From assembly GCF_030063195.1 (NCBI RefSeq), contig NZ_JASISS010000007.1, forward strand, positions 1 to 64,000: a stretch of 64,000 nucleotides of DNA. Reading direction: 5' to 3'. The notes below the pieces were generated by a model. The model saw nothing but the letters and a program-made list of their open reading frames with translations, was not told where the DNA came from and made no database searches. This document shows, one piece after another, positions 18,924 to 24,339 of the stretch. Each line of letters starts with the position of its first letter. Position 1 is the stretch's first letter. The position numbers were made by a program, and so were the translations under genes. Source of the stretch: Cryobacterium sp. PH31-AA6. GTDB lineage: Bacteria > Actinomycetota > Actinomycetes > Actinomycetales > Microbacteriaceae.

Positions 18924-20729
18924 ATGACGGCAGACACAGAGTCCAGCACGCGTTGGCAGACGATCCGCAAGCACGTGGCCGGTCTCCCGGTGCGTCCGAA
19001 TCTGGTCGACTATGACGCCACCTGCGCCACCTTCAGCTGGGATGCGGCCAGGCACGCCCTGGCGGGGCTTCCGGGCGGCCGGGGCGTCAACATCGCCTAC
19101 GAGGCCGTCGACCGGCACGCAGCCGGCCCGAATGCGGACCGGGAGGCCCTGCGCTTCGTTCGCGCGGACGGCTCCACCCATTCGCTCAGTTATGCCGCGC
19201 TCGCCGAGGAGAGCAGCCGGTTCGCGAGCGTTCTGCGGGGGCTCGGCATCGGGCGTGGCGACCGGGTCTTCTCGCTCATCGGGCGCGTCCCCGAGCTGTA
19301 CGTTGCGGTGCTGGGAACGTTCAAGAACGCGAGTGTGTTCTGTCCGTTGTTCTCCGCGTTCGGCCCGGAGCCGGTGCGACAACGCCTGCACCTGGGCGGG
19401 GGCCGGGCCCTGGTCACCACCCGGGCGCTCTATCGCAAGAAGGTCGCCCCGGTGCGGGACTCGCTGCCCGAGTTGCAGCACGTGTTCCTCGTCGACGCGG
19501 CCGGCGACCCGGAGCCGGGCACTCTCGACCTGGCCGCTCTGATGAGGGATGCCCCGCCCTACGGCGAGATCGCGGCCACCCAGCCGGAGGAGATGGCCCT
19601 GCTGCACTTCACGAGCGGCACCACCGGAACCCCGAAGGGCGCCATCCACGTGCACGACGCGGTCACCGCGCACTATGCGACCGGACTGTTTGCGCTCGAC
19701 CTGCACCCGGACGACGTCTACTGGTGCACCGCGGATCCCGGCTGGGTCACCGGCACCTCATACGGTGTGATCGCGCCCCTCGTCCACGGAGTGACGGCCA
19801 TCGTCGACGAGGAGGAGCTCGACGCCGACCGCTGGTACCGCATCCTCGAGGAGCAGAAGGTCACCGTCTGGTACACCGCGCCGACCGCACTGCGGATGCT
19901 GATGAAGTCCGGCACCGAACGGGCGGCAGCCCACGATCTCTCTGCCCTGCGCTTCGTGGCCAGCGTCGGAGAGCCGCTCAACCCCGAGGTCGTCGTCTGG
20001 GGCCAGGAGGCGTTGGGACTGCCGGTGCACGACAACTGGTGGCAGACCGAGACCGGCGGGATCATGATCGCAAACCTCGTCGCGACCGAGATCCGCCCCG
20101 GCTCGATGGGCCGGCCGCTGCCCGGTGTCGAGGCTGGTCTGGTCGCCCGCGACGACGAGGGTAACCCGGTGCTGCGGGGCAACGAGGCCCTGCTGGTCAC
20201 CCAGCCGGACACCGTGGGCGAGCTGGCGTTACGCCCCGGCTGGCCGTCCATGTTCCGCGGCTACCTCAACGAGGAGGAACGCTACCGCCGTTGCTTCGTC
20301 GGCGGCTGGTATCTCACCGGCGACCTGGCCAAACGGGATGCCGACGGCTACTACTGGTTCGTCGGCCGCGGGGACGACGTGATCAAGTCCTCCGGCCACC
20401 TGATCGGCCCGTTCGAGGTGGAGAGCTCCCTGATGGAGCACGAGGCCGTCGCCGAGGCCGCGGCCATCGGCATCCCCGACCCGGTAGCGGGGCAGGTGGT
20501 GAAGGCCTTCGTCGAGCTGAAGCCGGGATTCGAACCCGGCGAGCACTTGCGCCTGGAGATCATCGGCTTCGCGCGCAAACGACTCGGACCCGCCGTGGCG
20601 CCCCGCGAACTCGAGTTCACCACGTCGCTGCCGAAGACCCGCAGCGGCAAGATCCTTCGCCGCCTGCTCAAGGCGCGCGAGCTCGGTCTGCCGGAGGGCG
20701 ACACCTCGACCGTGGAGGTGCCCCGATGA
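18924..20729 (+). CDS. Acetyl-CoA synthetase-like AMP-forming ligase
   Basis: A 601-residue adenylate-forming enzyme close to acetyl-CoA synthetase. It has the ATP loop [10 protein letters not shown] (230-239), the acyl-site [18 protein letters not shown], and the C-terminal catalytic lysine in [13 protein letters not shown] 18924 has GGGGG upstream; a longer frame from 18870 would overlap the DosR-like box. It is shorter than the usual 640-650 residues of bacterial Acs. It is the first gene of a five-gene block and overlaps E1 alpha by ATGA. Acetate activation is the simplest guess, but the linked ACP means another carboxylate or acceptor is possible. Confidence 0.82.
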
Positions 20730-21694
20730 ACGGGGAACACTCCCGCTGGTTGCTCACGGAGATGCTCAGGGTCAGGCGATTCGAGGAGAAGTGCGTCGAG
20801 CTCTACAGCGCGGCGAAGATCCGCGGGTTCATGCACGTCTACATCGGCGAGGAAGCGGTCGCGGCCGGCGTGCTCAGCACACTCGGCCCGGACGACGCCG
20901 TTCTGGCGACCTACCGTGAACACGGCCACGCCCTCCTTCGTGGCGTGCCCGCGGGAGCCATCCTCGCCGAGATGTACGGCTTCGAGCAGGGCTGCTGTCG
21001 CGGCCGGGGAGGCTCAATGCACCTCTTCGATGCGGCCACCCGTTTCTATGGCGGCAACGCGATCGTCGCGGGCGGCCTGCCCCTCGCGGTTGGCCTCGCC
21101 CTCGCGGACAAGATGTCCGGCCGCAACCGCGTCACCGCCTGTTTCTTCGGCGAGGGCGCGGTCGCCGAGGGGGAGTTCCACGAGAGCGTCAATCTGGCCG
21201 CGCTGTGGCAGCTGCCCGTGCTGTTCTGCTGCGAGAACAACCTCTACGCGATGGGCACCGCGGTGGGGCGCTCGGAGTCCCAGACGGACATCGCGCTGAA
21301 GGCATCCGCCTACGAGATCCCGGCCTGGTCTGTGGACGGGATGGACGTGCTCGCCGTCGAGGAAGCGGCCCGGCGTGCGGTCGACGCCATCCGAGGCGGG
21401 GGCGGACCGCATTTCCTCGAACTTCGCACCTACCGCTTCCGGGCGCACTCGATGTACGATCCCGAGCGCTATCGGGACAAGGCCGAGGTCGCCCACTGGG
21501 TCGAGCGCGACCCGATCGACCTGCTCCGCGCAGCCCTGGAGGCGGCCGGCGAACTGTCGGCCGAGAGCTGGACGTCCATCCAGGGCGACGTCGACGCCGA
21601 GGTCCAGGCGGCCGTCGACTTCGCGGAGGCCGGCACAATCGAGCCGGTCGAGGAACTCGGCCGCTTCGTCTACAGCGAGGCGGATCCGACATGA
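20726..21694 (+). CDS. Thiamine-dependent 2-oxoacid dehydrogenase E1, alpha subunit
   Basis: A 322-residue E1 alpha of the pyruvate/acetoin dehydrogenase type. The thiamine-diphosphate motif runs from [15 protein letters not shown] (142-156) to ENN (170-172). [12 protein letters not shown] and the [13 protein letters not shown] segment are PDH/AcoA-like rather than branched-chain-like. The metal-binding motif begins GEG instead of the usual GDG, a tolerated variant. It overlaps acs and E1 beta by ATGA on each side. Pyruvate is the likeliest substrate, with acetoin as the alternative. Confidence 0.88.
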
Positions 21695-22671: not shown

Positions 22672-24085
22672 ATTCCGGATGCCGGCGCTCGGCGCGGACA
22701 TGGAGCAGGGCAAGCTGATCGAATGGCTGGTCAAGCCCGGTGACTACGTGCACCGCGGCGACATGGTTGCCGTCATCGACACGGACAAGGCCGACATCGA
22801 CGTGGAATCGTTCGAGGAGGGCGTTGTCGCCGAGTTGCTCGTCGAGGTCGGCACGACCGTACCGGTCGGCGGCGTGCTCGCCAGGATCACCCAGACCCCG
22901 GCGGCCGGCGTTGCTCCGGCCGGCCGAACGGCACCAGTGCCAGTGCCAGTGCCGGCACCGGTACCGGTGCCGGCGGCGGCGACCTCCGGATCCGTCTCCC
23001 CGCCGGTGCGGCGCCTGGCCCACAGCCTCGGCATCGACACGGGCGACCTGCACGGCACGGGCCGGAACGGTGCGGTGACGCGGGCGGATGTGGAGGCCGC
23101 GGCTCGTGCCTCGGCACCCGCTCCGGCACCCGAGAAGCCGGACGCCGACCGGGTGCGGTCCTCGCCGCGTGCCCGCCGGGTCGCCGGGGAACTCGGCGTC
23201 GATCTGGCCGCGGTGAGCGGGACCGGCCTAAAGGGCGCCATCACCGAGACGGATGTCCGCCGCTCCGCGAGCGCTGAGGTGGGAACGAGCGCGGTGGCTG
23301 GAACGAGTGCGGAGGCCGAACCCGCCGCCGTCACCGAACCGCCGGTCACCGAACCGCCGGTCACCAAACCGCCGGTCACCGAACCTGCCGCCGAACCGCC
23401 AATCCCAGCGCCCGCCGATCGGGCGGAGAGCCTGCGCCGCGCCATCGGCACCCTGATGACCCGTTCGAAGAGGGAAATCCCGCACTACTACCTGAGCACC
23501 ACCCTCGACCTCGGCGCGGCCCTCGCCTGGATGGCGGAGGTCAACCAGGCCCGGCCGATCTCGGCCAGGCTCGTCCCTGCCGCGCTGTTGCTCAAGGCGG
23601 CCGCACTGGCGGCGAAGGAGGTCCCCGAGGTCAACGGCTTCTTCACCGACGAAACCTTCCGCCCGAGCCGCGCAGTGCACCTCGGGGTGGCCGTCGCGCT
23701 CCGCCGCGGTGGCCTCGTCGCCCCGGCCATCCACGACGCGGACACCCTGCCCGTCGAGGTGCTGATGGACCAACTCCGCGACCTCGTCGGTCGGGCCCGC
23801 GCCGGCCGGCTCCAACGCGCCGAAATGGCCGACCCGACGATCACGGTCACGAATCTCGGCGACCTGGGAGTGGAGAGCGTGTTCGGGGTCATCTACCCGC
23901 CACAGGTCGCGCTGGTCGGCCTCGGCCGGGTGCTGGAACAACCCTTTGCCCGCAACGGGTTGATCGGCGTGCGCCCCGCCGTCACGGCCACCCTCTCGGC
24001 CGACCACCGGGTCAGCGACGGGCTTCGCGGCGGGCGATTCCTTGCCCGAATGGAGGAACTCTTGCAGAAACCGGAGGAGCTATGA
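22664..24085 (+). CDS. Dihydrolipoamide acyltransferase (E2) with two E3-binding domains
   Basis: A 473-residue E2. One lipoyl domain (about 1-77) has its lipoyl lysine K42 in DTDKADID. A Pro/Val linker follows. There are then two peripheral-subunit-binding domains in tandem, 112-146 ([13 protein letters not shown]...[13 protein letters not shown]) and 167-200 ([13 protein letters not shown]...[13 protein letters not shown]). After an EPPVT repeat linker comes the catalytic domain (about 252-473) with active-site ADHRVSDG (H448, D452). E2 proteins normally carry one such binding domain, so the duplication is unusual. No E3 gene lies in the window. The gene overlaps E1 beta by 8 bases and the ACP gene by ATGA. 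Confidence 0.9.
23330..23389. repeat. 15-bp tandem repeat x4 in E2 linker
   Basis: Four copies of GTCACCGAACCGCCG, the last two with single or few changes, encode TEPPV-type repeats in the E2 linker before the catalytic domain. They are in frame, in a segment expected to be a flexible swinging-arm tether. Confidence 0.85.
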
Positions 24086-24339
24086 ACGAACAGGATGCCC
24101 GAGCGGCGGTCCGCCAGGCCATCGGCCAGGTCGCACCGGATGTCGATCTCGACGAGGAGGCGGAGACCGCCAGGCTGCGCCAGGACCTCGAGCTCGACTC
24201 CCTGGACTTTCTGCGCCTGATCGAAACGATCGCCCAGACCACCGGGGTGGACACGCCGGAGCGTGACTATGCCCAGGTCGGCACGGTCAAGGGGCTGATC
24301 GACTACGTCGCAGCCCACGGCCGAGGGGCCGGCGAGTGA
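24082..24339 (+). CDS. Acyl carrier protein in the dehydrogenase operon
   Basis: An 85-residue acidic four-helix carrier. Ser40 in LELDSLDFL is the expected 4'-phosphopantetheine site. DLDEEAETARLRQDLELDSLDF resembles the stand-alone ACPs of secondary pathways more than fatty-acid AcpP (DSLD instead of DSLDTVE). The ATG overlaps the E2 stop, so it is co-translated with E2. Fatty-acid synthesis genes are absent nearby. The arrangement suggests that the acyl group made by E1/E2, or activated by the synthetase, is passed to this ACP, but that is inference. Confidence 0.85.
   Translation: MNEQDARAAVRQAIGQVAPDVDLDEEAETARLRQDLELDSLDFLRLIETIAQTTGVDTPERDYAQVGTVKGLIDYVAAHGRGAGE

Follow-up and report, generated by a model that had tools for sequence, protein, structure and literature searches.

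A conserved five-gene operon of an acetate-CoA ligase, pyruvate dehydrogenase-type E1 and E2 and a stand-alone acyl carrier protein: a tentative role in acetyl transfer at low oxygen

Organisation and predicted products of the locus

Analysis of the window (the whole 64,000-nucleotide stretch of Cryobacterium sp. PH31-AA6 DNA that was analysed) located five genes on the forward strand at positions 18924-24339, encoding an acetate-CoA ligase (ACS), E1α and E1β subunits, an E2 acyltransferase and an acyl carrier protein (ACP), with successive overlaps of 4, 4, 8 and 4 nt. The start positions of E1β and E2 were confirmed by open frames, and both the coordinates and the Pfam and NCBIfam assignments agree with the preliminary description, which spoke of five genes overlapping by 4-8 bases. 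ACS (18924..20729, 601 aa) is an AMP-forming ligase that belongs to the AcsA type, given its score of 909 bits with the NCBIfam acetate--CoA ligase model NF003313 (cut-off 729) and the presence of the motif WWQTETGG, whose tryptophan we take to be that of the acetate pocket. The motif PKTRSGK is also present, the Pfam AMP-binding domain scores 253.8 bits, and 9g79 is the top-scoring chain among solved structures.

E1α (20726..21694, 322 aa; TIGR03182, pyruvate dehydrogenase E1α, 437 bits, cut-off 393.85; Pfam E1_dh, 276 bits) and E1β (21691..22671, 326 aa; NF006667, 403 bits, cut-off 321; Pfam Transket_pyr, 128 bits, and Transketolase_C, 129.8 bits) both pass their NCBIfam cut-offs and are thus of the pyruvate dehydrogenase (PDH) type. 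The architecture of E2 (22664..24085, 473 aa) fits a PDH complex, as a lipoyl domain (22670..22888; PF00364, Biotin_lipoyl, 75.9 bits), two peripheral-subunit-binding stretches (Pfam E3_binding) and a catalytic domain (23426..24082, residues 255-473; PF00198, 2-oxoacid_dh, 191 bits) with the motif ADHRVSDG were all found. E2 falls under every curated NCBIfam E2 cut-off listed (TIGR01349, 264 versus 445), and an acetoin dehydrogenase was rejected on the score of NF011457 (78.8 versus 307). The operon shares the domains and motifs of E1αβ and E2 with the canonical PDH complex with heteromeric E1, but differs from it in the coupled AcsA and ACP, in a separate E1β clade and in the lack of an E3 gene in the set. 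As the preliminary description had it, no E3, polyketide synthase or fatty-acid synthase (FAS) genes were found among the window flanking genes scanned, which encode NUDIX, MarR, phosphoribosyltransferase, SNase, LigD, Ku, MerR, carotenoid-type and other proteins. Outside the operon, the host genome encodes one lipoamide dehydrogenase over the cut-off, and two phosphopantetheinyl-transferase-type matches were found in this genome. Of 98 loci, many of them with short flanks, 2 have an Lpd-like gene close to the operon.

The stand-alone ACP (24082..24339, 85 aa; PF00550, PP-binding, 37.5 bits) represents a distinct, operon-linked family. Its Ser40 (24199..24201), located in a DSLD motif as described previously, is the expected 4'-phosphopantetheine attachment residue and is invariant in 85/85 operon ACPs. 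The protein scores under all ten ACP-type NCBIfam cut-offs listed, and its assignment as a FAS ACP was rejected given the TIGR00517 score (29.4 versus 70.45) and the absence of an acidic helix II. The mean charge of helix II is -0.84 in the operon ACPs (n=85) versus -5 in ten FAS-type ACPs, the latter coming from one family of genomes with one common helix II sequence; the operon ACPs are nonetheless acidic overall, with a mean net charge of -10.6. Helix II of ACPs has a role in docking to FAS partners, and the loss of its acidic residues here argues against such partners.

Mitochondrial ACP is an octanoate carrier for lipoylation, and the operon ACP might likewise bring octanoate for LipB to the lipoyl domain of E2. 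The link is limited to loci L034 and L056, where a LipB-type gene (two LplA-B_cat members) comes after the ACP; a relative of that gene was found in only 2/97 loci with one query, which a distant LipB could escape, and octanoyl-ACP should need FAS docking, yet helix II has lost its acidic residues. We regard this role as improbable. More improbable still is that the ACP has a structural or regulatory part in the complex with no acyl turnover, as might be suggested by its two best solved matches, 7b0n and 6gcs, which are ACPs of respiratory complex I and score only 33 and 32 bits; the invariant Ser40 and the regular company of two acetyl-transferring enzymes speak against it. Three apparent E2-ACP fusions were set aside: in L026, where both share one frame, the ACS is split at about 8083 and an indel or decay is equally likely; that of L040 is artefactual, owing to a shifted E2, and that of L166 reflects a broken E2 end.

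Conservation and spread of the operon

We compiled 98 loci, consisting of 86 found with E1β, ten plasmid loci (L012-L021), L022 and the window. The search that led to L012-L022 had used the ACP, and the window was the starting point of the analysis, so only the 86 loci test ACP presence, on which the preliminary description had let its proposal hinge. Among the matches listed, the ACP is encoded in all 73 evaluable loci of these 86, i.e. those continuing past E2, and in 85/85 once the 12 ACP-found or given loci are added. The E1β scan covers the best 80 of 592 confirmed loci, leaning towards window-like sequences, with a profile itself built from operon copies. A less biased test is provided by genome samples of Pseudomonadota and Actinomycetota, each containing one genome known beforehand to carry the operon. 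Operon-type E1β and ACP picked the identical 14 of 398 Pseudomonadota genomes, and the survey of gene order suggested earlier found the five-gene order complete in all 14 (L076 and 13 others). One of these, G186, was the chosen centre with its operon known beforehand; for the remaining 13/397, two independent sets would coincide about once in 10^24 with relatedness ignored, a figure that is overstated because the genomes are related. E1β or ACP was detected in 16-19 of 396 Actinomycetota genomes. The operon is thus not rare among the sampled members of both phyla.

The operon E1β forms one clade across about 12 phyla, apart from seven paralogues tested, with signs of plasmid transfer, and the operon is plasmid-borne in several lineages. 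No match to ACS or ACP was found in five more distant E1β loci (417-430 bits), drawn from six matches at 417-433 bits, some of them cut by contig ends. Exceptions to the usual arrangement are L164 and L165, in which the ACP is present with no E1/E2 match beside it, and genome G215, in which the operon lacks an adjoining ACP and two ACP copies lie elsewhere; many loci are from metagenome bins, in which contigs may be misplaced. By simple pattern searches, with some misses inspected, WW.TETG was found in 115/122 ACS, while TETG is missing in four full-length ACS and the catalytic Asp in four E2s.

The canonical motifs kept in E1, E2 and ACS would suit an ordinary second copy of PDH and AcsA that makes acetyl-CoA at low oxygen, in which the ACP would be an accessory unrelated to acetyl transfer, and low-oxygen regulation alone could explain the co-expression. 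This explanation is distinctly unlikely in our judgement, as an accessory ACP would not be expected to keep one position in every evaluable locus listed, across some 12 phyla and with an invariant serine. The earlier reading of a conserved, coupled set with a regular ACP stands; it had missed the plasmid-borne copies and the low-oxygen and stress setting described below.

Neighbouring genes and promoter boxes

Dormancy-type stress genes are frequent beside operon copies other than that of the window, for which a search of the flanks gave no gene for USP, Hsp20 or PEP synthase. The 278 flanking proteins, scanned without 7 loci and without proteins of >900 or <75 aa, include 12 Usp, 10 CBS, 8 PEP synthase/PPDK and 8 P-type ATPase members among the 25 commonest families listed per flank. 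In a density control covering USP genes only, 21 were counted in the flanks versus 2.05 expected, in 11 of 41 loci from the best 80 of 592, with the genome scored by Pfam and the flanks by phmmer probes. Several actinobacterial copies have USP, nitroreductase, PfkB and DosS/DosR-like neighbours. Genes for acetate kinase and phosphate acetyltransferase, a known acetate route, lie close to the operon in L119.

Some neighbours would be consistent with an open system, in which acetyl-ACP is made either by E2 out of pyruvate or by ACS out of acetate, for an acceptor encoded elsewhere, for example in fatty-acid or PHB priming or as a GNAT acetyltransferase. FabI, an alpha/beta hydrolase (presumably PhaC-like), a phosphate acetyltransferase fusion and acetate kinase adjoin the Sulfitobacter operon, a putative GNAT-like ORF, read from the sequence, lies beside the orphan ACP of L165, and GNAT genes are annotated in L018 and L118. 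However, no acceptor family is prominent in the 25 commonest families per flank or in the probe tally, and the altered helix II speaks against FAS partners, leaving such a system unlikely.

The palindrome GGGACCTAAGTCCC (18875..18888, no strand assigned), an exact GGGACN4GTCCC located 35 nt upstream of the start codon of ACS, is a candidate DosR/OsdR-like regulator box in the promoter. The exact pattern occurs at 8 sites in the host genome, this one included, versus 3 for the pattern read backwards, and one-mismatch boxes in the window are at chance level (5 found, 8.29 expected). Of the seven other exact sites, one lies inside a predicted gene, two are unannotated and four are annotated, near ArsR/ArsP, an AAA protein, a Crp-type regulator and a MarR/chloride-channel pair; these are not classical DosR targets, no USP or Hsp20 gene was found near them, and these sites lend no support to a DosR regulon inside the host. 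A host response regulator that may be a DosR orthologue shares 57% identity over 208 aa with one encoded on a Rhodococcus plasmid, the next paralogues showing 37-39%.

Promoters were compared only for loci with >=300 nt upstream. The form GGGNCN4GNCCC, picked post hoc, is present 5' of ACS in 15/31 and 4/14 actinobacterial loci, the latter including two near-identical sites, and in 0/65 others. With up to one mismatch, the exact actinobacterial box was found in 3/14 replication loci versus 0.59 expected, a weak replication with a count reached in 10 of 500 shuffles. The form GGGMCN4GKCCC was found in 0/14 of these actinobacterial loci. FNR boxes with up to one mismatch were found in 23/52 promoters outside Actinomycetota versus 1.33 expected, and in 9 of 13 Pseudomonadota loci found irrespective of similarity to the window (0.39 expected). 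These patterns point to FNR boxes outside Actinomycetota and, less securely, to a DosR/OsdR-type palindrome inside it, suggesting that the five-gene block is probably switched on at low oxygen. The promoter palindrome and the stress-gene neighbours of several actinobacterial copies resemble the DosR/DevR and OsdR dormancy regulons; the operon is not among the OsdR targets named in the available text of PMC5069765.

Proposed function and comparison with known systems

We tentatively propose, with a little less than even confidence, that the five genes form a self-contained acetyl-transfer operon, consisting of an E3-less PDH, AcsA and a private ACP, for oxygen-poor or dormant life. E1αβ would decarboxylate pyruvate and place the acetyl group onto the lipoyl arm of E2, from which it would pass to the phosphopantetheine arm of the ACP, replacing or alongside free CoA; AcsA would exchange the acetyl group between the ACP and acetyl-AMP, and the housekeeping E3 would re-oxidise the lipoyl arm. 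Because the operon encodes no acetyl-handling partner besides E2 and AcsA, net flow at low oxygen would most likely run from pyruvate to acetate, with AcsA running backwards and converting AMP and PPi into ATP; the operon would thus perhaps turn pyruvate into acetate and ATP. Low-oxygen induction, both acyl transfers, their direction and the use of the host E3 are what we infer from sequence, which leaves the direction of the ACS unfixed. Both ACS and E2 retain the motifs that ordinary CoA chemistry would call for, and acetyl-CoA may therefore be the real product of the operon.

The most far-reaching form of the proposal, a CoA-independent branch running in oxygen-starved cells of many phyla from pyruvate through lipoyl-E2, ACP and AcsA to acetate and ATP, is possible but rather unlikely. 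If it were true, dormant cells would save energy by drawing ATP from AMP and pyrophosphate with their acetyl-CoA pool untouched. Contrary to the rule that CoA receives the acetyl group from PDH and AcsA, primary metabolism at low oxygen would then use an acetyl carrier bound to protein, and dormancy-type stress islands would gain a concrete biochemical task.

Among the matches listed from openly licensed PubMed Central papers, none describes the operon in its title or the start of its abstract. Loading of a carrier by E2 has been proposed in natural-product pathways, and the step suggested here may have a precedent in pepteridine biosynthesis and, at second hand, in that of naphthyridinomycin. 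According to the available text on pepteridine (Plu2796, Photorhabdus), E2, not CoA, is proposed to prime a 2-ketoacid-fed carrier whose serine is essential, and the E1/E2-T-C system resembles the operon in its PDH-like E1 and E2 and in having no E3 in the cluster (PMC5384830). It differs in that its E2 extends into carrier and condensation domains and that it serves secondary metabolism (PMC5384830), whereas the operon has a free ACP and AcsA with no condensation partner seen. No NRPS or condensation partner was found in the window flanks scanned or in the 25 commonest families per flank, and the operon is on this ground not assigned to the pepteridine or Nap type, in which the carrier is tied to such a partner. 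NapB/NapC/NapD of naphthyridinomycin (DinU/DinT/DinS in dnacin) are likewise similar, with a transketolase/PDH-like two-component enzyme and a small ACP onto which a C2 unit is loaded, but, as far as the accessible text goes, feed an NRPS from a ketose donor (PMC7570522, PMC5384830). For the ligase, a parallel is the AMP-forming Acs1 of Syntrophus aciditrophicus, which uses acetyl-CoA, with no PDH or ACP coupling mentioned in the available part of the source, and which makes ATP (PMC4992975); an ATP-forming role would be possible for the operon ACS as well.

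Gene content of the operon

The five genes of the operon (18924-24339, forward strand) lie where the preliminary description had placed them, with successive overlaps of 4, 4, 8 and 4 nt. Searches with curated models identified the ligase as an AcsA-type acetate-CoA ligase (ACS), and both E1α and E1β scored above the curated pyruvate dehydrogenase (PDH) model cut-offs. E2 combines a lipoyl and a catalytic domain with two subunit-binding stretches, and the last gene encodes a stand-alone acyl carrier protein (ACP) with Ser40. A lipoamide dehydrogenase and two phosphopantetheinyl-transferase-type matches are present in the host genome, suggesting that the missing parts of the operon could be host-supplied. 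The closest relative of the window E1β, among the matches listed, is from Cryobacterium (94-95% identity). The operon is real, widespread and tightly conserved, and no description of it was found in the openly licensed literature searched. We describe it as a PDH and AcsA pairing equipped with a dedicated carrier protein, which promoter boxes and neighbouring genes appear to tie to low oxygen.

LigD and Ku genes (non-homologous end joining) adjoin the operon at 25414-28829. A carotenoid-type gene run at 10217-15337 on the reverse strand encodes a UbiA prenyltransferase, a lycopene-cyclase domain, an FAD/amine-oxidase-type protein, a phytoene/squalene synthase and a polyprenyl synthetase.

The ACP is a regular member of the operon

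An initial search with the ACP as query recovered 10 loci on plasmids and a single family relative. A second search used E1β alone, leaving the ACP free to be absent, and yielded 86 loci, consisting of 80 genome contigs (the best 80 of 592) and 6 plasmid loci. Absence of the ACP from most homologous loci would have refuted the preliminary description; among these 86, the ACP was present in all 73 that reach past E2, and in the remaining 13 the sequence ends at most 88 nt from the E2 match. An ACS match was found in 95 of the 98 loci compared, a set including the same best 80 of 592; two of the other three are truncated by contig ends, and one (L101) has no ACS despite 2.8 kb of available sequence. 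Plasmid E1β sequences fall into two groups by identity to the window: 29 records lie at 68-78%, and none of the others exceeds 53%.

Species samples were searched with both proteins. In 398 Pseudomonadota genomes (E1β at least 557 bits, ACP at least 84 bits), both selected the identical 14, one of which, G186, is the chosen centre, and all 14 (L076 and 13 others) carry the full five-gene order. In 396 Actinomycetota genomes including the window's own (E1β at least 504 bits, ACP at least 83 bits), E1β was found in 16 and the ACP in 19, with 15 common to both; G240, the one remaining E1β genome, carries a diverged ACP at the expected position. The five genes lie on one stretch in 13 of the 16, two others (G565 and G549) are truncated by contig ends, and G215 has no ACP adjoining the operon and two ACP copies elsewhere. 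Among the four ACP-only genomes, G393 and G384 have short contigs on which an E2 adjoins the ACP, and G522 and G531 gave no E2 match beside it. Neither an ACS nor an ACP match was found at five more distant E1β loci fetched (417-430 bits).

Phylogeny and spread

The operon E1β forms one clade of 98 rows (including the best 80 of 592 genome contigs; support 99/94), apart from seven included paralogues, and covers about 12 phyla, several represented here by metagenome bins alone. Rhodococcus plasmid copies group with those of Burkholderia and Cupriavidus (99/93), and a plasmid copy from Sinorhizobium fredii is placed with an actinobacterial one (99/93), suggesting that the operon has moved between phyla. 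Its presence is patchy, given that 150 genomes of the host family hold one other clear copy besides the window's.

Promoter boxes and neighbouring genes

FNR and DosR boxes are sites of low-oxygen regulators. Among loci including the best 80 of 592 genome contigs, an FNR-type box with at most one mismatch was found in 23 of 52 promoter regions outside Actinomycetota, where shuffles predict 1.33, and in 1 of 31 within Actinomycetota; it also occurs in 9 of 13 additional loci drawn from the Pseudomonadota species sample (0.39 expected). As a sequence pattern, the link between the operon and FNR is secure. In Actinomycetota, the DosR/OsdR-type palindrome GGGACN4GTCCC with at most one mismatch was found at 12 of the 31 loci from that same set (1.51 expected) and at 3 of 14 in a second set (0.59 expected). 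The form GGGNCN4GNCCC, picked post hoc with the sites already seen, matches 15 of 31 and 4 of 14 loci versus 0 of 65 elsewhere, and the intermediate GGGMCN4GKCCC matches 13 of 31 and 0 of 14. An exact GGGACN4GTCCC lies 35 nt upstream of the first gene in the window, one of 8 in the whole host genome. This palindrome has a weaker link to the operon than FNR. OsdR sites, taken here as low-oxygen regulator sites too, are those in the available text of PMC5069765.

Annotated plasmid copies often lie among genes for universal stress proteins (USP), Hsp20, CBS, nitroreductase and DUF1876, as well as nicotinate phosphoribosyltransferase, P-type ATPases, PfkB and PEP synthase. Close to the Rhodococcus DK17 copy there are a GAF sensor kinase and a response regulator, and none of the listed families was found in the annotated surroundings of the Cupriavidus USMAHM13 copy. 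The 278 immediate neighbour proteins include USP (12), CBS (10), PEP synthase/PPDK (8), P-type ATPase (8) and zinc alcohol dehydrogenase (7). Around 41 loci, the flanks hold 21 USP genes, versus 2.05 predicted from the genomes' own density, and these genes occur at 11 of the 41. The scanned window flanks contain no gene of the recurrent families except a phosphoribosyltransferase-domain gene upstream (16524-17051, forward strand), of a family that recurs upstream of other copies (6 of 143 neighbour proteins).

The carrier protein and a possible reaction scheme

The ACP serine and the Asp just before it are invariant in 85 of 85 sequences. Acidic ACP helices are recognised by fatty-acid synthase (FAS) enzymes. 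Helix II of the operon ACPs has a mean charge of -0.84, versus -5 in ten FAS-type ACPs, a narrow control from one family of genomes with a single helix sequence; at position +5 relative to the serine, those ten carry Glu and 61 of 85 operon ACPs carry Asn or Arg. The operon ACP is still acidic as a whole protein. The less acidic helix II suggests a private partner rather than a role in fatty-acid synthesis.

In the simplest closed scheme, which we infer because no acetyl-ACP acceptor stands out among the 25 commonest neighbour families of either flank, E2 and AcsA would exchange acetyl groups via the ACP. Alternatively, the operon may be an open supply of acetyl-ACP, the ACP may help lipoylation or be structural, or the operon may serve plain acetyl-CoA production. 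In the closed exchange, pyruvate as donor would give acetate and ATP, which would be in keeping with low oxygen and with PEP synthase as a recurrent neighbour. The available text of PMC5384830 proposes E2-to-carrier transfer for pepteridine, with an essential carrier serine and more product on supplying a 2-ketoacid; such transfer has also been proposed for naphthyridinomycin and dnacin (via PMC5384830 and PMC7570522), and AMP-forming Acs is reported to run towards ATP in Syntrophus (PMC4992975, available text). The operon chemistry is directly testable.

Variant copies

E1α and E1β share one open reading frame at 27 loci (e.g. L014:5546-7543). In a Cryobacterium copy (L026:10974-12728), one open frame spans E2 and the ACP, and the ACS is split over two frames. 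Two tandem ACP genes follow E2 at L094:12224-12828. Four copies from Leisingera and Sinorhizobium fredii (L013, L016, L097 and L113) lack the Asp of the E2 catalytic motif HRVSDG, which reads HRVSGG or HRVSHG near the C-terminal end. Four ACP copies have no intact adjoining E2 (L164-L167), with CBS and P-type ATPase genes close to L166 and L167 and a GNAT-like ORF next to L165. A LipB-type gene follows the ACP on two metagenome contigs, labelled Desulfuromonadaceae (L034:3406-4035) and Desulfobulbaceae (L056:12526-13125).
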